Virus record (IMG/VR): IMGVR_UViG_3300035698_033106
Span: 1-21,880 of that record
Origin: a virus
Direction: 5' to 3' (one strand)
Length of the DNA: 21,880 bases
The notes beneath the pieces are model-generated. The model ran no database searches and was not told the origin of the DNA. It was given only the letters and a program-made list of their open reading frames with translations. Shown here piece by piece: positions 2,348 to 21,781 of the stretch (positions are counted from its first letter, which is position 1; each line of letters starts with the position of its first letter). The translations under genes were made by a program, and so were the position numbers.

Positions 2348-3256
2348 TCAGCCATTCTGATTATACCCAGTTCTTTTAGCGCTTGCACGTTCCTCAAGAG
2401 ATTCAAGAGTGAATTCTGTTACCCAGTGACCTCTGTCTGAGTCTCCTAGTTTAGCTAGTTCCTCGAACATTGGCTGATCTAGATAGGCTGTTCGCCATAG
2501 ATCCTCTCTCAATCCATAAACAGTTGTTGAACCTGCTGAATCTCGCACATCTTTATGAGCGAATATTCGGTGTGAACCACCACTTGATTCGTAGACAAGA
2601 ACTTCTTTAATAAGTTTTCTTTCTGACGCGTCAATGTATCGTGTTGAGTTTCCACCGAAACCAGCGATTGCCTGTTTGATCTTGAAGGTACATAGCACCA
2701 TATCGAAGATTTTGTCTGGATCTGCAACTGCCCAAACATCTGCCACAATATCGTTTAACTCTGTTTCAGAGAACGAAGTTCCTGAATTTCGAGCTGTTAC
2801 ATTTGTTGAAATGAACTCATCGATACCGTCCATCTGTCTCGCAGTACCTGAAGCACCTGAAGCTTTAACAGCATTCAAAAGTGCGTATTCCATCTTCATC
2901 TTTAGAACTCTCAATCTATCAGCTTTCTGAAAAGCGTAAGGGTCGCCCATAGCGGCCACATTTACCTTTCTTTCAGTTCGAGAAACTCGAATACCCTCTT
3001 TGATAATCTGAGTAATATTGTTTTCTCGAGTTGGCTGTGTTAGATCGTCGAATGTTGTATCAGCACCTTCAACATCACTTTGTACTGATGTTGGTCTTGC
3101 GACATTGTGCTTCATCCATTCATGTAGGGTTCCTGATGCAGTTCCTGAACCAAATAGAGTCAATAGAGGAGTTTCATCTGGTGAAACATCTCCAATGATA
3201 TCCAAAAGATCCTCTCTTCGACCAGTGTCATCGTAAGTTTGTAATCCCCAAGCCAT
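2348..3256 (-). CDS. Major capsid protein, SU10/DUF5309-like
   Basis: A 302-aa HK97-fold-type major capsid protein. The N-terminus (TYDDTG-REDLLDIIGDVSPDETPLLTLFG, then HEWMKH and EGADT) is the signature of the SU10-type major capsid family (DUF5309) as I remember it. The middle holds a stretch of short helices (KADRLRVLKMKMEYALL), followed by a loop with MDGIDEFIST and later KLIKEVLVYESSGG and a C-terminal ESLEERA segment. Length fits the family, with no fused protease. The gene follows a Gln-rich scaffold gene, the normal order. ATG at 3256 is the obvious start (MAWGLQTYDD); purine-rich AAGGGGGTGAAAAGGA lies upstream at a loose distance. Family assignment is from motif recognition, not a search. 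Confidence 0.88.
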   Translation of the reverse strand: MAWGLQTYDDTGRREDLLDIIGDVSPDETPLLTLFGSGTASGTLHEWMKHNVARPTSVQSDVEGADTTFDDLTQPTRENNITQIIKEGIRVSRTERKVNVAAMGDPYAFQKADRLRVLKMKMEYALLNAVKASGASGTARQMDGIDEFISTNVTARNSGTSFSETELNDIVADVWAVADPDKIFDMVLCTFKIKQAIAGFGGNSTRYIDASERKLIKEVLVYESSGGSHRIFAHKDVRDSAGSTTVYGLREDLWRTAYLDQPMFEELAKLGDSDRGHWVTEFTLESLEERASAKRTGYNQNG

Positions 3257-3293
3257 AATTTAACGGATTTTTTCCTTTTCACCCCCTTTCAAT

Positions 3294-4445
3294 TTATTCA
3301 TCTCCAATTTCCTCCTTGGATGTTGGAGTACCATGGTGATCGATATGCTGTAGTCGCTCAGCGACTGCCCACATACCTTTATCCCCGCCACGTCGAGTAA
3401 GATGTCGGAGCCGATCGAGGTCTTCCTCGGATTCCTGGGTTGGTTGCCCACCCACAGGTTGTCCCTGAGCGGATAGACCGCCCTGCTCCTTAACTGATGT
3501 GGTTGTTGGTTGCTGTTGTTGTTTATCATTTTGCTGTTGCATCTTTTGATTTGCCTGACCTCCTTCTTCTGGTTTCTGCTTCGGATCCTGAGGAGTTTTT
3601 TCCCCAAGCTCATCTGCCGCCAGATCTGCAGCTTCTTTGAAAGTTAGCGAGTGACCTCCGTAATCTTGTGGATTCATCATTGAGTCAAGAGCTATTCTTC
3701 GAGTTATTTTATTCAAGTTGTTATCAAAATCTTGTGCACCAGGCTGTAATTGTGGATACGCTTTGTACGTATCAGCTGCCTGCTTAGCATCTTCTGCCTC
3801 TTGCTGCCTTTTGATATAACTTTGAATTTGTTGCTCTGATCTCACTGCTCGGTCATTAGCACCACTAATTGCTTTTTGCAATTTTTCCTCGTTAATAACC
3901 TTGTACTTCTGGCCCGTTGCTGGGTCAGTTTCCTCCTCCACAAATTCGGCAACATTTGGTTGCTGAGGTTGAGCCAAATTCTGCAATGGCTGTAATCTCT
4001 GCTCAGACTGTAGTCTTTGGTTTAACTCCGTTTGGAGTACTTGATTTGATTCAAGAAGTTTTTTATTGTTCTCGGTTAATTTACCAAACTCATCCCGAGT
4101 CCTTTCCGTAACTCCTTGTGGCAAATCAAACCCTGGCGACTGTTGTCTCCCAAAGTTTGCAATTTGATCCGCTAAGTTAGCAGGTGTTGGTTGTGGGGTT
4201 GGTTGAACTGGAGCTTGGGGAACTGGCGCTTGTGGCTGGGCCTGCGATTGCGCTGGCTGCTCCTGCGTCTTTCCTTGTGGCTGCTGCTCTCCCTGAACCT
4301 CTTTTCCACCATCCTGCTGCTGAACGGGTTGTTGTTGCTCACCGTCTTGTTGTTTATTGTTTTGCTGTTGGTCTCCTTGAGGCTGTGTTACTTCACCGCC
4401 TACCTGGTCCCCACCAGCATCTGCTTTAATGTTGTTGTCTGCCAA
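3294..4445 (-). CDS. Capsid scaffolding protein (Gln-rich)
   Basis: A 383-aa acidic, very Gln/Pro-rich protein. Residues 1-90 are a disordered Q/P/G tract. The middle (about 110-225) is coiled-coil-like (LTENNKKLLESNQVLQTEL, then SEQQIQSYIKRQQEAEDAKQAAD). Then comes another Q-rich linker and a basic/acidic C-terminal helix (EEDLDRLRHLTRRGGD). This composition and the location between portal and major capsid protein fit an internal scaffold; the C-terminal charged helix would contact the capsid protein by analogy with other phages. The start is TTG at 4445, chosen because AAGGAGGTG (4455-4463) stands 9 nt upstream and no ATG precedes the MADNN start. A frame inside it (3260-3613) is an overlap artefact. 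Confidence 0.8.
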   Translation of the reverse strand: MADNNIKADAGGDQVGGEVTQPQGDQQQNNKQQDGEQQQPVQQQDGGKEVQGEQQPQGKTQEQPAQSQAQPQAPVPQAPVQPTPQPTPANLADQIANFGRQQSPGFDLPQGVTERTRDEFGKLTENNKKLLESNQVLQTELNQRLQSEQRLQPLQNLAQPQQPNVAEFVEEETDPATGQKYKVINEEKLQKAISGANDRAVRSEQQIQSYIKRQQEAEDAKQAADTYKAYPQLQPGAQDFDNNLNKITRRIALDSMMNPQDYGGHSLTFKEAADLAADELGEKTPQDPKQKPEEGGQANQKMQQQNDKQQQQPTTTSVKEQGGLSAQGQPVGGQPTQESEEDLDRLRHLTRRGGDKGMWAVAERLQHIDHHGTPTSKEEIGDE

Positions 4446-4903: not shown

Positions 4904-5248
4904 TTAAAGTTTCAATGTTTTAGGTTGTTTTCTTCCCAAACGGATATCTTCAAGTTCATCAGCCACTTCTGTTACTTGCTGAATTTCCATAAGTATTTGC
5001 TTTGCTACATCAGCTGAATGAAAAGCATTAAGCTCTTGCCACATCCATTGCTTTTGCGACTTAGTATTTCTAGGATCTACCCATGCGTGATAAGCCCGAG
5101 ACTTTAACCATCCATTGACAATTTTCCAACCATCAGAAGTCAACATTTCTTTGAGAGCCATACCATCCCTAAGCTTTTTAGCTTCTTCTGCATCAAGCTC
5201 TCTACCTTTCGAGTTATCTAATTGTGGCTGTTGGGATTTGTCTACCAT
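4904..5248 (-). CDS. Portal-adjacent phage protein (unknown)
   Basis: A 114-aa protein starting MVDKSQQPQLD. The longer open frame that begins at 5434 is an artefact of reading through the portal gene, because the residues before this ATG are out of frame with portal and look random. The gene overlaps the portal 3' end by 35 nt. The protein is acidic and helical, with a GWKIVNGWLKSRAYHAW core and a C-terminal helix (AKQILMEIQQVTEVADELEDI). A short helical protein directly after portal is a recurrent arrangement in podo- and siphophages; its job is unknown. No cysteine motifs or membrane segments. Confidence 0.65.
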   Translation of the reverse strand: MVDKSQQPQLDNSKGRELDAEEAKKLRDGMALKEMLTSDGWKIVNGWLKSRAYHAWVDPRNTKSQKQWMWQELNAFHSADVAKQILMEIQQVTEVADELEDIRLGRKQPKTLKL

Positions 5249-7313
5249 TTGCTTGTGCTGGCTGTGGTCCTCCCAGCAGTGATTCTGGTTGAACCCCTGG
5301 TGGCACCACCTGTGCTTGTTCTTCTTGAGATAATTTATTTCCTTGTCCTTGCCCTCCTGGTGAACCACCTTCTGCTTGAGCTGCCATTGTCTGGATTTCT
5401 TCAGGAGATAGCTCTTCGAAAAACTTCTCAGCATTTTTAAATCCTGAATCTTCTAGCCAAGCTACAAACAAATCTCTGAATTTAGGCTTTACTTGTTCTT
5501 GTGACAAAAGCTCCAAAATAACTGGACTAGAAAGAATACTTGTAATAGCTGTTCTTCGACCTTGCTTAATATCATCACTTCCTGAAAGAGACATTGATTC
5601 TACATCTGCAATGAAATCAAAATTACCTTTCAAGTCTTCAGGTTCTACATGTAATGTTCCAAAACTACCCTCTTCATCCACTTCCATTTTTGGAACCATG
5701 TTCGGGTTTTCCTTGTTTCCCAGATTAATAGGAAATCTAGGTCTTCCAGCATCTATAGGCAATTGATTCCTACCTGTAATTGGATCTGCTAATTCTGATC
5801 CAGGAATCTTAAACTCACCTCTTGGAGTGGTTACCTGTTCCACCTTACTCATGTCAGGCTCCATAGCATCCAAACCTTTTTTCTTGAAATACTCCATGGC
5901 TTCATTCCCCACAACTCGAACTACATAGGTTTTTTTGTCTTCATCTGCAAAAATCATCTTTTGATTCATCTGGTGCCAAAGCATCATTTGTCTCTGAATA
6001 GCTTCTGCCAACATGTTCTGGTTATAATTATCTCGAGCATTTCTTTGCATCGTCATCTGCTTCACCTCTGTGGCAGTTTTCTCTGGGTTGTATCTATTCA
6101 TATTTGAAACCCCAAGAGAGCTTTCCCCAGTTGCGTTTGAAAGAGCTGCGATTAAAGCTGAATATGTGTTGTTGAAAAATTGAGCCGCATTAGACTTTGA
6201 TTCAATCAACCTAAAATCTGACAAAGGATTATTCATTCTCCATCTTGCACCCTTACCCCAATGCAAAGTATGTTCTCTTACCCCTGGGCCTATAGCAATT
6301 GGTGAATATAGCTTTTGATTGATTTCATCCACATATTGAGAAAGTAAAGCGTTGATAGCTTTCTGCAATCCTTTGATTGGTTCGATTTCACTCATTCCGT
6401 AAATGTCATCATCAATTTGGTAATATCGAAGCATCACAATTGGCAGTTCATAATTGCCATATGGATTATCTGCTTCCCGCAGTATGATTCCATGCTTTGG
6501 GGAAAAGGTAATCCACTTATCTCTTCGATACTCAGTCACAATCTCTACCGTCTTAAACACATCATCTTTTCCAATGGGGTCATCATTCAACCCAGAAATA
6601 GTTCTATTTCTTGAGATCCAATTTGTATCTCGAGAATCTCCTCCCCTTTGAGACTCTTCATTAAGAGATCTCTTCAAAGCTTTTACATTTTTATAAATAG
6701 GACCGCTTCTTGATGAATCATTAACCCTTTCTAACTCTTGGATAGTTATATACTCCCGAACTTGAAACCAATTTGCATTTTCAATGCTAGTAGCAGCTGG
6801 ATCTGGCAAACAATCTCGGTTATTTAAAGCCACCATTTCGGGACCATCAAAAACCACTCTTCCAGAAGGGTCAGTTTCATATCTCCATTTACATAAAGAA
6901 AAAGCTGATCCATATTTTCGAGTACTTAAATCCATAAGTCCCCATTTTGAAAGCATGGTTCCGTTATGAGTAGCCTGATCCCACTGATAATTTAACAGTG
7001 CATTATTAACATGCGCTGCCAATACATCTCCTCCTTCTCTAGGAATTAATTTCCCTCTAAGTTTCTTGCTTAAAAGTCGTGATGTTTTCTCGAAAATAAA
7101 GGTAAATACACGGGGATCAAAAAGAAGTGCGTCATACGGCCATTTAGATTCGTCCAACCAAGATCGAAACAGTTCGTCTGCTTCATCAAAGGAGATTGAA
7201 CCAATTCTACCTCGGCCTGTTCTTCTTCTGTCTGTTTCTTGTGAAGCCCAATCATAATGGCGTCTTACCTCAGAGAAAGTCTTGTCAGTTTTAGGTATAG
7301 TAGTTTTAGCCAT
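5214..7313 (-). CDS. Portal (head-tail connector) protein
   Basis: A 699-aa portal protein forming the dodecameric DNA gate of the capsid. Typical portal features: an N-terminal helical part (EVRRHYDWASQETDRRR), a wing region with YGSAFSLCKWRYETD and DCLPDPAATS, then YGNYELPIVMLRYYQIDDDIYGMSEIEPIKGLQKAINALLSQ, in which the YGMSEIEP and I-N-LLSQ stem motifs are recognisable, a crown-region ATEVKQMTMQRNARDNYNQNM helix, and a Gln/Gly-rich C-terminus. The long form is like podovirus or SU10-type portals. The start is ATG at 7313 (MAKTTIPKTD); the frame opens farther up at 7349 but that part (LGVFFMFILLS) lies in the terminator U-run. No Shine-Dalgarno is visible. Confidence 0.88.
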   Translation of the reverse strand: MAKTTIPKTDKTFSEVRRHYDWASQETDRRRTGRGRIGSISFDEADELFRSWLDESKWPYDALLFDPRVFTFIFEKTSRLLSKKLRGKLIPREGGDVLAAHVNNALLNYQWDQATHNGTMLSKWGLMDLSTRKYGSAFSLCKWRYETDPSGRVVFDGPEMVALNNRDCLPDPAATSIENANWFQVREYITIQELERVNDSSRSGPIYKNVKALKRSLNEESQRGGDSRDTNWISRNRTISGLNDDPIGKDDVFKTVEIVTEYRRDKWITFSPKHGIILREADNPYGNYELPIVMLRYYQIDDDIYGMSEIEPIKGLQKAINALLSQYVDEINQKLYSPIAIGPGVREHTLHWGKGARWRMNNPLSDFRLIESKSNAAQFFNNTYSALIAALSNATGESSLGVSNMNRYNPEKTATEVKQMTMQRNARDNYNQNMLAEAIQRQMMLWHQMNQKMIFADEDKKTYVVRVVGNEAMEYFKKKGLDAMEPDMSKVEQVTTPRGEFKIPGSELADPITGRNQLPIDAGRPRFPINLGNKENPNMVPKMEVDEEGSFGTLHVEPEDLKGNFDFIADVESMSLSGSDDIKQGRRTAITSILSSPVILELLSQEQVKPKFRDLFVAWLEDSGFKNAEKFFEELSPEEIQTMAAQAEGGSPGGQGQGNKLSQEEQAQVVPPGVQPESLLGGPQPAQANGRQIPTATIR

Positions 7314-7613: not shown

Positions 7614-7955
7614 TTATGAATCAAGTTTTAATGGTCGCTTAAACACGGGTAATTCTATTTTATCTACATCTTCACCTCTCACGTAACGAACCACGCCTTT
7701 CTCAATTGCAACCACAACTTGACCATATCCACTACCTATAGCAATGTTGTGAATCTGCCTAATAATCTTAATCACAATATAAGGATCAAGACCAAGTTGA
7801 TCCACCAAATCAGTAAACACCCAAATATCTGGACGCACTAATTTTAATGTTTCCATAAATTGCTGACTATTGTGACTGCTTTCTTGTTCGTACAAAGACT
7901 TTAGTATGTCCTTTGCAAATTCATCTTTATTAGTTGGCTTTATTTTTTTTGCCAT
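7614..7955 (-). CDS. Conserved-looking phage protein between terminase and portal (unknown)
   Basis: A 113-aa protein with a basic N-terminus (AKKIKPTNKDEF), a helical middle and a C-terminal segment IGSGYGQVVVAIEKGVVRYVRGEDV that reads like a small beta domain. It begins one base after the terminase nuclease stop, so it belongs to the packaging transcript. I do not recognise a family. It contains no cysteines or transmembrane stretch. A role in packaging is only suggested by location. Confidence 0.65.
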   Translation of the reverse strand: MAKKIKPTNKDEFAKDILKSLYEQESSHNSQQFMETLKLVRPDIWVFTDLVDQLGLDPYIVIKIIRQIHNIAIGSGYGQVVVAIEKGVVRYVRGEDVDKIELPVFKRPLKLDS

Positions 7956-13136: not shown

Positions 13137-13598
13137 TCAAGCCGCCTTCTTCCTTCGAAGATAATTTCGATTGTTGACCACTATCTTTTTTTTACGAGCT
13201 GTGTATTGGCATTCTTTCGAACAATACTTATGAAAGGCAAAGCCACAGACCATAACATAGTAATATTTACATTCTTCACACGTCCTCACTCTGGTTTGTA
13301 TTTCTTTACCTATTTTTTTATATTTCTTCTGAGCTTGCATCTGCCTAACCTCTTCAACCAACTTAAGTTTCTGTGCAATCTTGTGTACACGTTGACGGGA
13401 AATGGCCAACCGACGAGCTGTTTCAGAATAAGAAATACCTTGAAACAAAAAACTAGCGATTTCTTCGTTACGCTCGGTTACTATTTTCTTTTTACCCTTA
13501 TAACGATGTCCACAGCGGGGGCAAAGATTTTTAGCTAAAGCTGCTCCTGCATTACATTCTGGACATCTTCGTTGTTTAGGTTTGGCATATGCGTACAT
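13137..13598 (-). CDS. Zinc ribbon / HTH / zinc-finger regulator
   Basis: A 153-aa probable DNA-binding protein. The N-terminal zinc ribbon uses Cys12, 15, 26 and 29 (RCPECN ... LCPRCG). A helix-turn-helix follows (about 45-75, ISYSETARRLAISRQRVHKIA). A second zinc module uses Cys107, 110, 126 and 130 (TCEECK ... YCSKEC), ending in a basic tail. The same three-part layout is found in the divergent neighbour at 13815-14357, although the sequences differ. Lying between the metabolic and late operons and just upstream of the late promoter, it is a good candidate for a late activator or repressor; that is inference. Its own promoter is unclear (ATGACA-N18-CAAAAT upstream is weak). Confidence 0.72.
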   Translation of the reverse strand: MYAYAKPKQRRCPECNAGAALAKNLCPRCGHRYKGKKKIVTERNEEIASFLFQGISYSETARRLAISRQRVHKIAQKLKLVEEVRQMQAQKKYKKIGKEIQTRVRTCEECKYYYVMVCGFAFHKYCSKECQYTARKKKIVVNNRNYLRRKKAA

Positions 13599-13814: not shown

Positions 13815-14357
13815 ATGCAAGGTGTTTGTCGCATCTGTGGCGAAGAGACCTCCACCAAAAGGACTAAACGCTGCTACAGATGTTATCGTAAACAACTCTG
13901 GGTTAAACGAAGTCTACGGGATAAAAAAGTAATCTCTGATATTATGCAGGGAAATCTTTCTGCGGCCATTGCAGCTCGAAAACACAACATCTCTAGAGAA
14001 ATGGTTAGACTTATCCTCCAAGATAATGGTATTGATTATGCTCAACTTCTATATAAACGACGTCAAGCCAAAAAACGAGTTAACGAAAACATAGAAACCA
14101 AAGCTAAAATGCGCAAATGTGAGTGGTGTGAAAAAGACTTTATAGTGAACCAAAAGGGCGCCAGAGTAAAATACTGCTCTACTAATTGTTATGAAACCCG
14201 CTATAAAAAACTTCAAAGATTAAGAGTTAAAGCCTACTATAAAACTCCAAAAGGAAAAATGGCCCTTAAAAAATACAAACAGAAAAACAAAATTAAAATC
14301 AAAAAATACCTAGAATCGTGGCATAAGCAAAATATTACATCAAGCCCACAGGACTAA
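13815..14357 (+). CDS. Zinc ribbon / HTH / zinc-finger regulator, divergent relative
   Basis: A 180-aa probable DNA-binding protein. N-terminal zinc module Cys5, 8, 20 and 23 (VCRICGE ... RCYRCY); helix-turn-helix at about 44-68 (NLSAAIAARKHNISREMVRLIL); second zinc module Cys102, 105, 121 and 125 (KCEWCEKDF ... YCSTNC); then a very Lys-rich tail (residues 130-170) likely to contact nucleic acid. It has the same architecture as the gene at 13137-13598 on the other strand, suggesting old duplication. Its 3' end overlaps the convergent HNH gene by 18 nt. The strong promoter and lone plus-strand orientation in this stretch suggest early expression and a regulatory role, unproven. Confidence 0.72.
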   Translation: MQGVCRICGEETSTKRTKRCYRCYRKQLWVKRSLRDKKVISDIMQGNLSAAIAARKHNISREMVRLILQDNGIDYAQLLYKRRQAKKRVNENIETKAKMRKCEWCEKDFIVNQKGARVKYCSTNCYETRYKKLQRLRVKAYYKTPKGKMALKKYKQKNKIKIKKYLESWHKQNITSSPQD

Positions 14358-14724: not shown

Positions 14725-17421
14725 TTACATCTCACAGATTCCTGCTACGCAAGCAGGTTCCTGAGCAGCTTTAGTCATGTCTTCCTTCTCGTAAAGAAAA
14801 ATTCTAGAAAAATCAATATCTTTAGGAAAAGCCTCCAAGGCATGTTTATATTGTTCTTCAGTAATTTCTTCATAAGGCATTTGATGATAGTTGGCATCTG
14901 AAAAAGGCAAAAAGGACATTCCACCTATAATATCCTGATTGTCATATACCCATGTTATTAAAACGCCTAGCTCCTGTGGCTTATAAGAAATTGTCACAGA
15001 AGGGTTATGTTCCGTAAAGCAGATTTTAACCTTCTTCCAAAATTCACACTGGTCTATGGCCGACATATCATGCCGAACTCGAGCATGGTCAGGAGACTTA
15101 ACTGGAAAACTAGCCACCCAGGTAATAACATTCGGTGGTTCTTGCCCGTTTTCAGGGGTTAAAGGAACACCTGCATCTCTTAAAACTTTATACACTGGAG
15201 AATCATTTCCAACCCTCACTCTTCGAATGTAATAAGGAGCCCACCTAGCATGGATCCCTGAAGAACAACCAAAAAGTTGAGAACTGTTGCCAGAAGGTTT
15301 GGCACAAGTCACAGATGTTGATTGTGGTATCCCTAGTTTCTTGGCATAAATACGATTAGTTTCCAGTGCTTTTTCTTTGAGTTCCAGTAAAAGTTTGTCG
15401 CTGCCTTCTTGATAAAGAAGTGGAGTATCTTGCATTCCATTTATGTCAACACCAAGAAGTCTTTCCTCTTCACAATTGGCTTTCCAAATTGGTCTAAGAC
15501 CAGGGAAATCAACACTCATGGACTGTATCGTTCCAATGATTGTTGCTACTTCCACCTTTTCCATCAAGGATTCTCGCGTGTCGTCTTCCCTAGCAATAGA
15601 AATCGTAAGATTGCAGAATTCATGCGGTCTCAGATAAATTTCCCCACAGTTGTGGGCAATCATACCGTCCGCGACCAGGCAATTAGTGTCCTCAACTGAA
15701 ATATCATAAACATCCACCTGATCCCCTGTTTCTATTTTTTCTATCGTGGCATATTGGTGTAATAAAGACTTGAGAGATTCAGGTATTGGAACAATCTCTT
15801 TCCTTCCGTGCATACTTGTTTTTGAAGAAATAAATCTACCACCCTCTCCCCTAACTTGATGATCGTTTGGCGCCAAACACCGAGTCAAAGTTGCATGCTC
15901 TGAATGAGGGAACATTTCTAAGTTATCTATTGAGTTGTTGTATGTATTGGCATCCTTGTGGTGGATATCATGCCCTTTTAAGATAGGACCCTTCACTCCT
16001 TCATACACCAAACGATGCTCCATCACGAAGTCTTTTTTCCCTTGAGAGGTCAACTTTACACCTGAATACCTAGATCCACGCCTCTGGCGAATCAAACCTA
16101 TCACCCTGTCTTTGATTTGTATATTCTTCGCTTTCACCCACCCTTTTCCCTCGATCATTATCTTGTGTTCAGAAGTTACCCTTAGTGTCTTTCCATTGGC
16201 AATGGTTATGTTCAACGTCTCAGTACCATCTCTTGTCTTCCAAGAAGCAGATGCCCTTCTAACACAGAGCACCCCATGCTTATTCATTGTGTAAACGTGA
16301 GTTGGAGATTTAATATCTTTGATTTTGACAGGCCCTTTTACAGTTTCTATAATTGAATCTGGATGGAAACAAGGGTTTATTCCGTAATTGTGGGGTTTTC
16401 TCCTCTTTGGTTTTGTCAGGTTGGCTGCCCTTCTATTAAATATACCAGGTTCACCTCTACCACCATTGTCCATTTCTTCCAGTATTTTTTTTACTTCTTT
16501 TTTGCTTAGCCTTCTATCTGGCCACACAGCGGAATTGTTAGCATTCCATCTCTGCCATTCTTTGTCTAGATCTCCATTTTTAGAATCACGCATTTCCTCA
16601 TCGTCAAAATCGAAAAGAGAAATCATGGCAGTACGACGGGTACCACCAGAAACAGCAGCATTACCCACCATGCACATGATGTCGTACGCATCAAGGGGGC
16701 GAAGTCCCTCGTCCTGATGAGCAAGGATTCGCTCACGAGCAAAATCTAACATTTGCCGTAACGGCTCAGGACCAGAAGCCCGTCCCCCTTTGATACGCAA
16801 AACAGAGCCCGCTGGGCGAACCAGCGAGTAATCAAACTCGACATCTTTACCATCATACCAAGTCTCCAGTCCTTTTCTCAAGGCATCAGTCCAACCCTCA
16901 GTAGTGTCAGAAACTTGAAACACATCAAGATGTTCTCCTGTTTGTTTCTTGATTTTAGGAAGCCTATCTACGTACTTCTTCTCCACAGAAAAGCCAACCC
17001 CACAGCCGTTCATGGAAATCGTTAATCCTTCTATCCAGGCATCAATAGAATCAATAGGGAGATAGGAACAATTATAGATCGCAATATTACTTCGGCGAGC
17101 AGCAGGGCCTGCCATTGCAAGAAGCCTCATGGAGGGTGTTGCCTTCATTTCTAGCATAAAATCTCGAATCCGCGAATACTCTTCTGCATGCAAACGGTCA
17201 TGGCTAATTTCTCGAAGAAAAGCTACAGAACGAGCTACAGCCTCAGGCCAAGTTTCCCTTCGTCCTTTGTCATAATCAAAACGCGCATACTTATCAAAAA
17301 ATTGGAACTTCTGAAGTGGAGTAGGAAAGTATTTATCAGACTCTTTGAAAGCATCTCTGACATTAACTGGCACAGATCCTTTTTGGATGTTTTTGGGGTT
17401 AGAAGATATTAATTCAGACAT
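14725..17421 (-). CDS. nrdJ: Class II ribonucleotide reductase with intein
   Basis: An 898-aa precursor: 657 aa of extein plus a 241-aa intein. It should reduce ribonucleotides to deoxyribonucleotides using adenosylcobalamin. Diagnostic residues: Cys118 in YNCSY, the catalytic loop NP|CGE split by the intein (Cys592 in the precursor, Cys351 after splicing, Glu two residues on), Cys603 in EFCNL, CAKPSGNSSQLFGCSSGIH, and a C-terminal CxxxxC pair (CVAGIC) as in monomeric Lactobacillus-type enzymes. There is no NrdB-like gene nearby; instead the cobalamin adenosyltransferase lies 60 nt upstream, supporting class II. Start ATG 17421 follows a T-rich leader. The monomeric RTPR-type placement is from motifs only. 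Confidence 0.9.
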   Translation of the reverse strand: MSELISSNPKNIQKGSVPVNVRDAFKESDKYFPTPLQKFQFFDKYARFDYDKGRRETWPEAVARSVAFLREISHDRLHAEEYSRIRDFMLEMKATPSMRLLAMAGPAARRSNIAIYNCSYLPIDSIDAWIEGLTISMNGCGVGFSVEKKYVDRLPKIKKQTGEHLDVFQVSDTTEGWTDALRKGLETWYDGKDVEFDYSLVRPAGSVLRIKGGRASGPEPLRQMLDFARERILAHQDEGLRPLDAYDIMCMVGNAAVSGGTRRTAMISLFDFDDEEMRDSKNGDLDKEWQRWNANNSAVWPDRRLSKKEVKKILEEMDNGGRGEPGIFNRRAANLTKPKRRKPHNYGINPCFHPDSIIETVKGPVKIKDIKSPTHVYTMNKHGVLCVRRASASWKTRDGTETLNITIANGKTLRVTSEHKIMIEGKGWVKAKNIQIKDRVIGLIRQRRGSRYSGVKLTSQGKKDFVMEHRLVYEGVKGPILKGHDIHHKDANTYNNSIDNLEMFPHSEHATLTRCLAPNDHQVRGEGGRFISSKTSMHGRKEIVPIPESLKSLLHQYATIEKIETGDQVDVYDISVEDTNCLVADGMIAHNCGEIYLRPHEFCNLTISIAREDDTRESLMEKVEVATIIGTIQSMSVDFPGLRPIWKANCEEERLLGVDINGMQDTPLLYQEGSDKLLLELKEKALETNRIYAKKLGIPQSTSVTCAKPSGNSSQLFGCSSGIHARWAPYYIRRVRVGNDSPVYKVLRDAGVPLTPENGQEPPNVITWVASFPVKSPDHARVRHDMSAIDQCEFWKKVKICFTEHNPSVTISYKPQELGVLITWVYDNQDIIGGMSFLPFSDANYHQMPYEEITEEQYKHALEAFPKDIDFSRIFLYEKEDMTKAAQEPACVAGICEM
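15649..16371 (-). mobile_element. Intein with HNH homing endonuclease in nrdJ
   Basis: Precursor residues 351-591. It starts with Cys (CFHPDSIIET, block A), has block B (TLRVTSEHKI, Thr and His), and ends VYDISVEDTNCLVADG then MIAHN followed by Cys (blocks F and G: terminal His-Asn and +1 Cys). Between them lies an HNH_3-type endonuclease: EHRLVYEG, LKGHDIHHKDAN, NNSIDNLEMFPHSEH. All splicing residues are present, so it should splice itself out. Insertion is exactly before the catalytic cysteine of the NPCGE motif, so the +1 nucleophile and the active-site cysteine are the same residue. The frame is intact on both sides. Confidence 0.88.
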
Positions 17422-19627: not shown

Positions 19628-19696
19628 ATGGAAGATGAGCAAGTATTAACTGGGATCAGGCCCACAGGCAAAATGCACCTAGGACAATGGAAATGA
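19628..19696 (+). CDS. 22-codon ORF resembling the N-terminus of TrpRS
   Basis: The peptide contains VLTGIRPTGKMHLGQW, which looks like the start of bacterial tryptophanyl-tRNA synthetase (GIxPTGKLHLGHY, the HIGH-type motif). The rest of the enzyme is absent and the frame stops after one more codon. The stop overlaps the next start as ATGA (19693-19696). This is either a remnant of a captured trpS 5' end now serving as a translation leader, or a leader peptide that mimics it. Similarity is by eye on about 15 residues. Confidence 0.55.
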   Translation: MEDEQVLTGIRPTGKMHLGQWK

Positions 19697-19916: not shown

Positions 19917-20102
19917 ATGAAAAATAAAATAAAAATGTATCTGCATTGTAAAAAATGCTTAGATGTTAAAAAGATGGAAGATAAGGGTTTTTTGGCAGTT
20001 GGGTGGACAAAGAAAGGATTGCAGGTTTGGTGTGAAACTTGTGATCAGAATGTTATGGCCTTAGATTTTGAAGGCAAAAAAATTTCATATGCCAAAAAAT
20101 AA
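19917..20102 (+). CDS. Small zinc-ribbon protein
   Basis: A 61-aa protein with HCKKC and WCETC pairs (about residues 10-14 and 38-42), a plausible zinc ribbon. Its first codons (ATGAAAAATAAA) match the beginning of the repeated start module found downstream. Start ATG 19917 lies 2 nt after the upstream stop; ATG 19935 is an alternative. Its stop TAA is provided by the first copy of the module, giving a 14-nt overlap with the next gene. Confidence 0.55.
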   Translation: MKNKIKMYLHCKKCLDVKKMEDKGFLAVGWTKKGLQVWCETCDQNVMALDFEGKKISYAKK

Positions 20103-20346
20103 ACCTACCAACACAGATGTGAGGGAGGAGTTTAATACTTATGTAGATGAAACTCCAATGACAAATGCAGATAGGAGGTTTCTAAAAAGAGAACACAGAA
20201 AAGCTCTGGGTTCTGAAAGGGAAAAAGTATTAGAAGTAGTTGAAAAACACATGGATAGTTTTACAGGGATGCCTGATGCAGTTAGTGTTTGTGTTTCTGG
20301 AGCACTCAATATTTTGATTACTGAATTAAAACAAAATGAAAAATAA
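20089..20346 (+). CDS. Start-module gene 1 (MPKNKPTNTD), unknown
   Basis: An 85-aa protein. The first 10 residues (MPKNKPTNTD) are shared with three following genes; the body (EEFNTYVDETPMTNADRRF ... EVVEKHMDSFTGMPDAVSVCVSGALNILITEL) is unrelated to theirs. The ATG 20089 is chosen over one in the same frame at 20068 because the shared motif begins there. It is overlapped by the upstream gene by 14 nt and overlaps the next by 11 nt. Helical, no recognised domain. Confidence 0.6.
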   Translation: MPKNKPTNTDVREEFNTYVDETPMTNADRRFLKREHRKALGSEREKVLEVVEKHMDSFTGMPDAVSVCVSGALNILITELKQNEK

Positions 20347-20602
20347 ACCTACCAATACAGGTAAATTGAGTGAGGAGTTAAGAGAGATGGGTTTCGGCAA
20401 TCAAGCAATAATTGTTGGGACTAAACGAGTTGAGCTATATGATTTTGTTGATTCCAAACTCCAAAAACGGGATGAGGAGATATGGAAAATAATTGACCAA
20501 TATCCAATTATTCAATTTCCCCTTAGAGATGGGACTACAGCAAAGGCAGTGTTGGTACACAGCTTGAAACAGGCGAAAGTAGTCACCCTAAAACAAAAAT
20601 GA
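20336..20602 (+). CDS. Start-module gene 2 (MKNKPTNTG), unknown
   Basis: An 88-aa protein starting with the shared module (MKNKPTNTGKLSEELRE). Its middle, VDSKLQKRDEEIWK, resembles FKYVQQRDEEIETLK of gene 4, so these two are paralogues beyond the module, whereas the C-terminal IIQFPLRDGTTAKAVLVHSL differs. It ends in an ATGA overlap with gene 3 (20599-20602). The function is unknown. Confidence 0.6.
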   Translation: MKNKPTNTGKLSEELREMGFGNQAIIVGTKRVELYDFVDSKLQKRDEEIWKIIDQYPIIQFPLRDGTTAKAVLVHSLKQAKVVTLKQK

Positions 20603-20847
20603 AAAATAAACCTACCAATACAGATAAGAAAACACACACAGTCATAGAAGAGAAAGATTACCTAGTAAAAACAAAAGAAGACAAAAATTACTGGGTGTAT
20701 GAAATCAGCGACAATGGCAAGAAGTGTATTGGTATTTTTGATGATTGGGAACAAGCCCACGAATTCATTGATTTAAAAAAGTACAAGGAAGAAATGATAA
20801 TTAAAATTGAAAAAGGAGAGCTCACAGAAGAAGAATTACCATTTTAA
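20599..20847 (+). CDS. Start-module gene 3 (MKNKPTNTD), unknown
   Basis: An 82-aa protein. After MKNKPTNTD comes a distinct body (EEKDYLVKTKEDKNYWVYEISDNGKKCIGIFDDWEQAHEFIDLKKY) that reads as an alternating beta/alpha domain of unknown kind. The acidic end is GELTEEELPF. The gene is coupled upstream by ATGA and is followed after one base by the next module copy. Confidence 0.6.
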   Translation: MKNKPTNTDKKTHTVIEEKDYLVKTKEDKNYWVYEISDNGKKCIGIFDDWEQAHEFIDLKKYKEEMIIKIEKGELTEEELPF

Positions 20848-20848
20848 T

Positions 20849-21073
20849 ATGCCAAAAAATAAACCTACCAACACAGATAAATTGAGGGAGGAAATAGATA
20901 AATTGTTTTGGAATACAGCCGAACGTAAAGACACAGTTGATCTGATTTTTAAATATGTCCAGCAACGGGACGAGGAGATAGAAACATTGAAGAGAAAAAT
21001 AAACCATCAAAAGAAGATTATAAAAATATACGAAACTGGTGTGAGGCATATTGCCAACCAGAAGACACCCTAA
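20849..21073 (+). CDS. Start-module gene 4 (MPKNKPTNTD), coiled coil
   Basis: A 74-aa protein. MPKNKPTNTDKLREEIDKLFWN is followed by VDLIFKYVQQRDEEIETLKRKINHQKKI, a probable short coiled coil. It is a paralogue of gene 2 in its first half. The start at 20849 is taken instead of the frame opening at 20807, which reads through the end of gene 3. The function is unknown. Confidence 0.6.
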   Translation: MPKNKPTNTDKLREEIDKLFWNTAERKDTVDLIFKYVQQRDEEIETLKRKINHQKKIIKIYETGVRHIANQKTP

Positions 21074-21079
21074 AACAAA

Positions 21080-21361
21080 ATGCCTAACATAATGAAAGAA
21101 ATAAATGAAAAAGAAAAAATAGGGTTAATTTTAATGACGTCATTGATATGGGGAGTAGTCATAATGTTTGTGTTTAAATCAATTCCGATATATCGAATAG
21201 AACATGTACACAAAGAGTTCATAGATGGGTGGGTTAATAGGCAAACTTATGATTGGTGTTTGAGAAATGAATACAGCGCAATTATGTCTGATAATCCAAG
21301 AAGAATGATTGATTGTGTTAACCGAGAGGATGGTAAGAGCGTTGTGAATCATTCTGATTGA
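21080..21361 (+). CDS. Small single-pass membrane protein
   Basis: A 93-aa protein with one membrane segment at about 14-33 (IGLILMTSLIWGVVIMFVF) after a charged N-terminus, so a probable signal anchor with a soluble domain of about 60 residues containing two Cys (YDWCLRN and MIDCVNRE). ATG 21080 or 21092 may be the start. The bases just before it (CCCTAAAACAAAATG) copy those before genes 2 and 3. It is the last gene of the chain and has the size of a phage accessory membrane factor, but is unlike a known holin. Confidence 0.55.
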   Translation: MPNIMKEINEKEKIGLILMTSLIWGVVIMFVFKSIPIYRIEHVHKEFIDGWVNRQTYDWCLRNEYSAIMSDNPRRMIDCVNREDGKSVVNHSD

Positions 21362-21391: not shown

Positions 21392-21421
21392 GTACATTAC
21401 AATGAAAGAATTGACAATTGA

Positions 21422-21781
21422 GTTGATGTAGCTAAACACAAGTCTCACCTCATACTCACATGCGAGGAGGGTAAAACACTTGTTAAGCAGCTAGGCCTTA
21501 GAAAACAAGAAATGCTGATAGAGTGGGGGGATAACCCATTTAATTGGAACGACGCATGTCAATTGGCTACATCAACTGAGTCGTCAATTTCGATTCAAAT
21601 GATCAAGACGCACGTTTACAGATTGGGGGGGCTCGCCAAAATAAAAAGAATATGGCGGACACAATTCCCTGTCTGCCGACAGGCAGGCTTCGGGAGTTGG
21701 GGCGACGAACCCCCTCCAATCACACAGGGTGGCAGGGAGAGAACAGGCCCTGTCATCCACATATTTCCAAAATGGAAATAA
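21422..21781 (+). pseudogene. Possible broken HTH protein
   Basis: The frame is open from 21422 to the stop at 21781 but has no start codon before ATG 21512. The part before (DVAKHKSHLILTCEEGKTLVKQLGLRKQ) looks like protein. ATG at 21402 in another frame (MKELTIEL, stop 21429-21431) would join it after a one-base shift. Residues after 21512 contain an HTH-like stretch (WNDACQLATSTE ... IKTHVYRLGGLAKIKRI). The last third is encoded by a REP-like hairpin and looks non-native. I suspect a decayed gene, but the evidence is weak. Confidence 0.35.
21671..21717. repeat. REP-like GC-rich hairpin pair
   Basis: GTCTGCC-GACA-GGCAGGC (21671-21688) is a 7-bp stem with one wobble; it is followed by GGAG-TT-GGGG ... 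CCCC-CTCC (21693-21717). Both are GC-rich islands in an AT-rich region, resembling chromosomal REP elements. They interrupt the 3' part of the doubtful ORF. Confidence 0.5.

Follow-up and report, generated by a model that had tools for sequence, protein, structure and literature searches.

The window analyzed here, i.e., the whole of a virus record of 21,880 bases, contains four consecutive small open reading frames (ORFs) on the (+) strand, which start at positions 20089, 20336, 20599, and 20849 (a spacing of 247, 263, and 250 bases) and all have KNKPTNT(D/G) at the very beginning of the protein. The starts, the spacing, and the N-termini are as given in a previous sequence-only reading of the same DNA.

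Organization of the Array and Its Surroundings

The first of the tagged genes (20089-20346) encodes 85 aa beginning MPKNKPTNTD-VREEF, the second (20336-20602) 88 aa beginning MKNKPTNTG-KLSEEL, the third (20599-20847) 82 aa beginning MKNKPTNTD-KKTHTVIEE, and the fourth (20849-21073) 74 aa beginning MPKNKPTNTD-KLREEI, with a charged, helix-like body. The row is flanked by an upstream small gene at 19917-20102 (+), whose product (MKNKIKMYLHCKKC...) has only ATGAAAAATAAA in common with the array, and by an untagged small gene at 21080-21361 (+), with AAAACAAAATG in front of it. Neither Pfam nor PHROGs provided a convincing family for any of the four tagged proteins, and no significant match to them was found in phage records.

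The genes are closely packed. The TAA found within the repeated start module stops the previous gene in two cases, as had been claimed, given that the gene at 19917-20102 terminates within module 1 and gene 1 (at 20346) within module 2. The TGA stop of gene 2 overlaps the ATG of gene 3 (ATGA), and the TAA stop of gene 3 sits just before gene 4. Stops placed in or beside each module in this manner would result in a tightly packed and probably translationally coupled operon. DNA repeat comparison also revealed a junction element, ACCCTAAAACAAAA, with one copy before gene 3 (20578-20598, +) and a second before the untagged gene at 21080 (21060-21080, +), and these two copies are read in different frames of their respective upstream genes.

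The array belongs to a divergent block of small (+) genes that begins at about 19,628, and it lies on the strand opposite to that of the structural genes, i.e., the (-) head module formed by a major head protein (phrog_1328), the portal, and the terminase. The other genes of the window encode GroEL/GroES, a ribonucleotide reductase, a cobalamin adenosyltransferase, and two phosphoesterases. The ribonucleotide reductase (14725-17421, -) contains an insertion of ~220 residues matching HNH endonuclease families (about residues 378-522), which is absent from the ribonucleotide reductase of the related phage G001 and is probably an intein. A pair of divergent genes at 13137-13598 (-) and 13815-14357 (+), whose proteins are ~30% identical over 100 aa (E about 1e-5), is possibly a small duplicated family. 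The sparsely coding end of the record presents a 27-nt inverted repeat (21409-21435 / 21563-21589; 85% complementary, 127 nt apart) and a CTGTCTGCCGACAGGCAGG palindrome at 21669.

The Tag Module and Its Start Contexts

The DNA repeated at the four starts is real, albeit shorter than the 40 bp originally claimed. The near-identical DNA common to all the starts has 22-24 nt, which gives a core module of ~24 bp, and a longer segment, of 36 nt at 97% identity, is shared by the gene 1/4 pair only. A pattern search located the core at 20095-20118, 20339-20362, 20602-20625, and 20855-20878 (all +). It reads in-frame as AAAAATAAACCTACCAAYACAG[AG]T, encoding KNKPTNT(D/G), and directly follows ATGCCA in genes 1 and 4 and the ATG itself in the other two. 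Roughly nine residues are common to the four N-termini. The pattern AAAAATAAACCTACCAAYACAGRT occurs four times in the window without mismatch and never in 100 dinucleotide shuffles. Both a chance repeat and a simple tandem repeat were rejected.

Two start contexts can be distinguished upstream. Genes 1 (TTTCATATGCCA) and 4 (TTTTAATATGCCA) have the context referred to here as type B, with ATGCCA preceded by TTT(C/A)AT, i.e., TTT(C/A)ATATGCC. Gene 2 (TTAAAACAAAATG) and gene 3 have type A, with AAAACAAAAATG, in the form AAAACAAA(A)ATG. The sequence that had been described as repeated before the ATG, AAAACAAAA, is found just upstream of genes 2 and 3 and of the untagged gene at 21080, but it is absent before genes 1 and 4. 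Starts that are A-rich and have no clear Shine-Dalgarno sequence are frequent elsewhere in the window, so the A-rich upstream region is not peculiar to the array. Downstream from the tag, all four proteins contain the motif [LV]-x-E-E (VREE, LSEE, VIEE, and LREE), and three of the four tag copies run straight into a charged stretch ending in this motif.

A Head-Operon Protein with a Tag-Like N-Terminus

A protein encoded between the terminase and the portal (7614-7955, -), which has the N-terminus MAKKIKPTNKDEFAKDILKSLY, also presents a likeness to the tag. It carries KIKPTNKDEFAKDILKSL, and of the 24 other window proteins compared with the tag and the stretch that follows it, this one obtained the top score (P about 0.0025 against composition shuffles), for a likeness that was noticed after the fact. 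It was also above the null in an all-against-all comparison of N-termini. As the KPTN codons of this gene differ from those of the array, the likeness is at the protein level. The syntenic homologue in G001 begins MVKKKDIIQEAATSLY, without KPTN. Even as an observation made after the fact, the tag-like start of the head-operon protein favours a peptide function that would be connected with the head.

This finding bears on the possibility that the module is a DNA or RNA start element, that is, a translation-initiation or regulatory site similar to the SAS of the cluster K mycobacteriophages, with the peptide being incidental. Such an element would account for DNA that is near-invariant even at synonymous positions, for a location that is always at the start, with the preceding stop inside or beside the module, and for the repetition of the ACCCTAAAACAAAA junction in different reading frames. 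The common DNA begins only at codon 2 or 3, however, and the upstream part, where the site of a ribosome or a regulator is expected, differs between copies. No promoter or terminator signal above shuffles was detected, in a scan that covered only sigma-70-type promoters, and Rfam provided no match. The copy at 7614-7955 retains the peptide and not the codons. On the whole, we consider a start element improbable.

Probable Recombination at the Tag

The flanks of the four modules were compared in ten-base bins anchored on the tag. In the bin from -10 to 0, genes 1 and 4 agree at 9/10 positions and genes 2 and 3 at 8/10, with 1-3/10 in the other pairs, whereas in bins +20 and +30 it is genes 2 and 4 that agree, at 9/10 and 7/10 positions. 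The genes thus group as 1+4 and 2+3 upstream from the tag and as 2+4 downstream from it, and this switch, which has few informative characters, is more probably the product of a recombination or conversion event at the tag than of plain tandem duplication.

The codons of the tag are near-invariant, with a single synonymous site that varies (AAC/AAT), while the bodies of genes 2 and 4 have 22 identical residues, of which the codon is the same at 12 and different at 10, a number of codons so small that the comparison is indicative only. In ten phage records chosen by their major head protein (54-90% identity), no pair of gene starts reaches 26/33 identical nucleotides, a level which is reached by two tagged pairs in the window.

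Relatedness and Predicted Structure of the Bodies

The bodies had been described as mostly different, and this description stands, with the exception of genes 2 and 4. These two are paralogous past the tag (E about 3e-7 by blastp, with 48 aa aligned), even when their bodies are compared alone, without the tag (p = 0.008 in a shuffle test). At the DNA level, these two genes share an island of 23 nt (TCCAAAAACGGGATGAGGAGATA) at 20460-20482 and 20958-20980 (both +). The shuffle tests of the bodies, both DNA and protein, found no related pair among the four genes besides 2-4. The part that gene 3 has in common with the others is the tag only, and that of gene 1 is the tag and a few further residues. 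A common body in another reading frame was also considered and rejected, since the DNA comparison of the bodies yielded just the island of genes 2 and 4.

In the structure predictions, gene 3 alone yielded a usable model, its best one with a pLDDT of 76.7 and the other four with 47-57. In the best model, most of residues 1-12 have a pLDDT <50 and are followed by a body predicted to fold as beta-beta-beta-helix. A Foldseek search with the gene 3 model returned nothing below 1e-3. An alignment of genes 2, 4, and 1 gave an all-helical model (pLDDT 61.8), which is too weak to use.

The main rival to a targeting role for the tag is the tandem duplication and fast divergence of a single gene, in which the N-terminus would be either the slowest part or gene-converted, and the tag would have no role as such. 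The near-regular spacing of the starts, the clear paralogy of genes 2 and 4, the few additional residues common to genes 1, 2, and 4 ([LV]xEE), and the similar lengths of the products (74-88 aa) are consistent with this history. Nevertheless, gene 3 has no similarity to the others past the tag, and its predicted beta-beta-beta-helix contrasts with the all-helical prediction, at low confidence, for gene 2. Near-invariant tag codons and conflicting flank groups are not expected from plain descent either, and a tag-like N-terminus is also found on the unrelated protein of the head operon. Duplication with divergence is a serious, if doubtful, possibility.

Search for the Module in Other Genomes

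The sequence-only reading proposed a cassette, in which a common start module is recombined with variable small ORFs, and suggested that metagenomic contigs be searched for the module and for proteins beginning with the tag. IMG/VR was searched for KNKPTNT, M-x-KNKPTN, MKNKPTN, and KPTNTDK, and the GTDB representatives for KNKPTNTD, by means of exact degenerate patterns, and the matches were read in context. Neither collection, from which near-identical records may be left out, yielded another tagged array or a further genome carrying the module. The matches found elsewhere are internal to other families or belong to single genes, such as those beginning KNKPTN in L103, L094, and perhaps L061, and there is no array around the matching gene in L061 or L103. 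The module is also absent from the ten capsid-related phages, and the genes themselves are missing from every relative found.

The closest relative is G001, where synteny with the window extends to the second phosphoesterase and other genes occupy the position at which the array would be. When the neighbouring phosphoesterase is used for the comparison, G001 alone is close. Beside the array, at 19628-19696 (+), the window contains the first 22 codons of a gene of the TrpRS/TyrRS type (MEDEQVLTGIRPTGKMHLGQWK*), fused to the block of small genes, while the tRNA-synt_1b gene of the syntenic relative G001 is complete (L035:5034-5834), and this difference indicates a rearrangement next to the array. 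The 96.9-kb G001 record carries both HisRS-like and TrpRS/TyrRS-like genes, at 2631-3338 and 5034-5834, respectively.

These results limit the idea of a mobile cassette, that is, a tag module through which homologous recombination would carry different small ORFs from phage to phage. The flank conflict within the array agrees with it, as does the rearrangement of the locus in comparison with the nearest relative, seen in the truncated TrpRS-like start that adjoins the array in the window. On the other hand, IMG/VR, the GTDB representatives, and the ten capsid relatives yielded no other array, in collections that may omit near-identical records. What stands of the cassette proposal is the common tag on mostly different bodies and the switch of the flanks, but its spread between phages is unsupported and, in our assessment, very unlikely.

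A Possible Targeting Role of the Tag

The reading that we tentatively prefer, as a possibility somewhat short of even, is an N-terminal sorting tag, similar to the capsid-targeting sequence (CTS) of T4, carried by various accessory proteins of a phage group that is distinct from T4. The array would then form a small operon for accessory proteins of the phage, in which a common N-terminal targeting tag is joined to different small bodies that may act against the host. The tag would bring each protein to one place, most plausibly the assembling head, for delivery together with the DNA, and the CTS of the T4 internal proteins provides the model for this task. The growth of such an array would have occurred at the tag, by duplication or by recombination, with the tag staying nearly identical while the bodies diverged or were exchanged.

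Should the tag prove to be a sorting signal, the accessory proteins that uncultured phages deliver or co-localise could be found simply from sequence. The handle for such searches is the presence of different small genes which share just their first 10-16 codons, and a modest set of contigs yielded T4-like arrays at once.

Comparison with Known Systems

The short start-associated sequences (SAS/ESAS) of the cluster K mycobacteriophages are repeats located at the starts of different gene families, into which the preceding stop may fall, and they precede the start codon and include a Shine-Dalgarno core (PMC3203893). The repeat of the window is also tied to starts and includes preceding stops, but in contrast with the AGGAG core of the upstream SAS, it lies downstream from the ATG, in coding DNA, behind an A-rich region with no AGGAG. 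A further parallel is found in the PeSL cassettes of the T4-like phages, in which a promoter and a stem-loop recur between small accessory genes and are considered to promote the shuffling of genes (PMC4503421, citing the original papers). Both are repeated elements at small accessory genes, although the module of the window is coding, and its genes overlap or abut.

The system most similar to the array is that of the T-even internal proteins, diverse anti-host proteins that a common leader brings into the phage particle. Ip1, Ip2, and Ip3 are small unrelated proteins that have an N-terminal packaging leader as their sole common part (PMC12373910, PMC3012670), the T4 propeptides have 10-20 residues (PMC5694885), and the three ip genes of T4 are found in two loci (PMC12373910). 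The tagged proteins likewise combine a short N-terminal leader with otherwise unrelated small bodies, with the exception of the paralogous genes 2 and 4. In contrast with the two loci of T4, the window has four tagged genes in one row, and its phage has a different major head protein (phrog_1328). The tag bears no evident likeness to the T4 leader in a comparison made by eye, and PHROG and Pfam yielded no match of the tagged proteins to any internal-protein family. The [LV]-x-E-E that follows each tag recalls the cleavage of leaders after glutamate, which is suggestive only. Neither an S77 nor an S78 prohead protease was found in the window or in seven relatives, records which may be fragments, with an S77 search that was shown to work by T4-like contigs only, and a T4-like cutting step is thus not supported.

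When ~1.24 Mb of retrieved viral DNA was scanned for neighbouring genes with common start DNA, T4-like environmental contigs (L129, L130, and L131) that encode MKITKSQLKQIIKEEL-type N-termini were found. For example, positions 800-2759 of L129 (G013:C1 13000-16500) contain five such genes in direct succession, with starts at 800, 1165, 1526, 1900, and 2232 (a spacing of 365/361/374/332), with ends that abut or overlap. The first three tags are identical at 42-44/48 nt and the remaining ones at fewer, and the bodies are unrelated (p 0.05-0.94). Several MKITKSQLKQIIKEEL-tagged genes are present in L130, and the rows in the three contigs look like capsid-targeting-tag arrays, on which a limited literature search found no paper. 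A second recurrent N-terminus, similar to MKxLxENWRKxVNEE, is found on different proteins in L121 (6378 and 8107), L119, and L130 (903).

The arrays of L129 and L130 have the same build as that of the window, i.e., consecutive small genes with a common N-terminal module, different bodies, and regular spacing. They differ from it in the tag itself and in the S77 prohead protease, which is encoded in the L129/G013 contig and in T4-like contigs of the same kind, in contrast with the window, where none was found. The earlier view that no described system resembles the array is thus overturned, given that the T-even internal proteins and the five-gene array of L129 have such a layout. By analogy with these systems, the array is best regarded as a variant of the T-even internal-protein organization, in the sense that it would work like it, without belonging to the T4 family. 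It is conceivable, although unlikely, that a non-T4 lineage with no recognisable prohead protease of the T4 or HK97 type evolved its own N-terminal virion-targeting tag and maintains a tandem array in which tagged anti-host proteins recombine.
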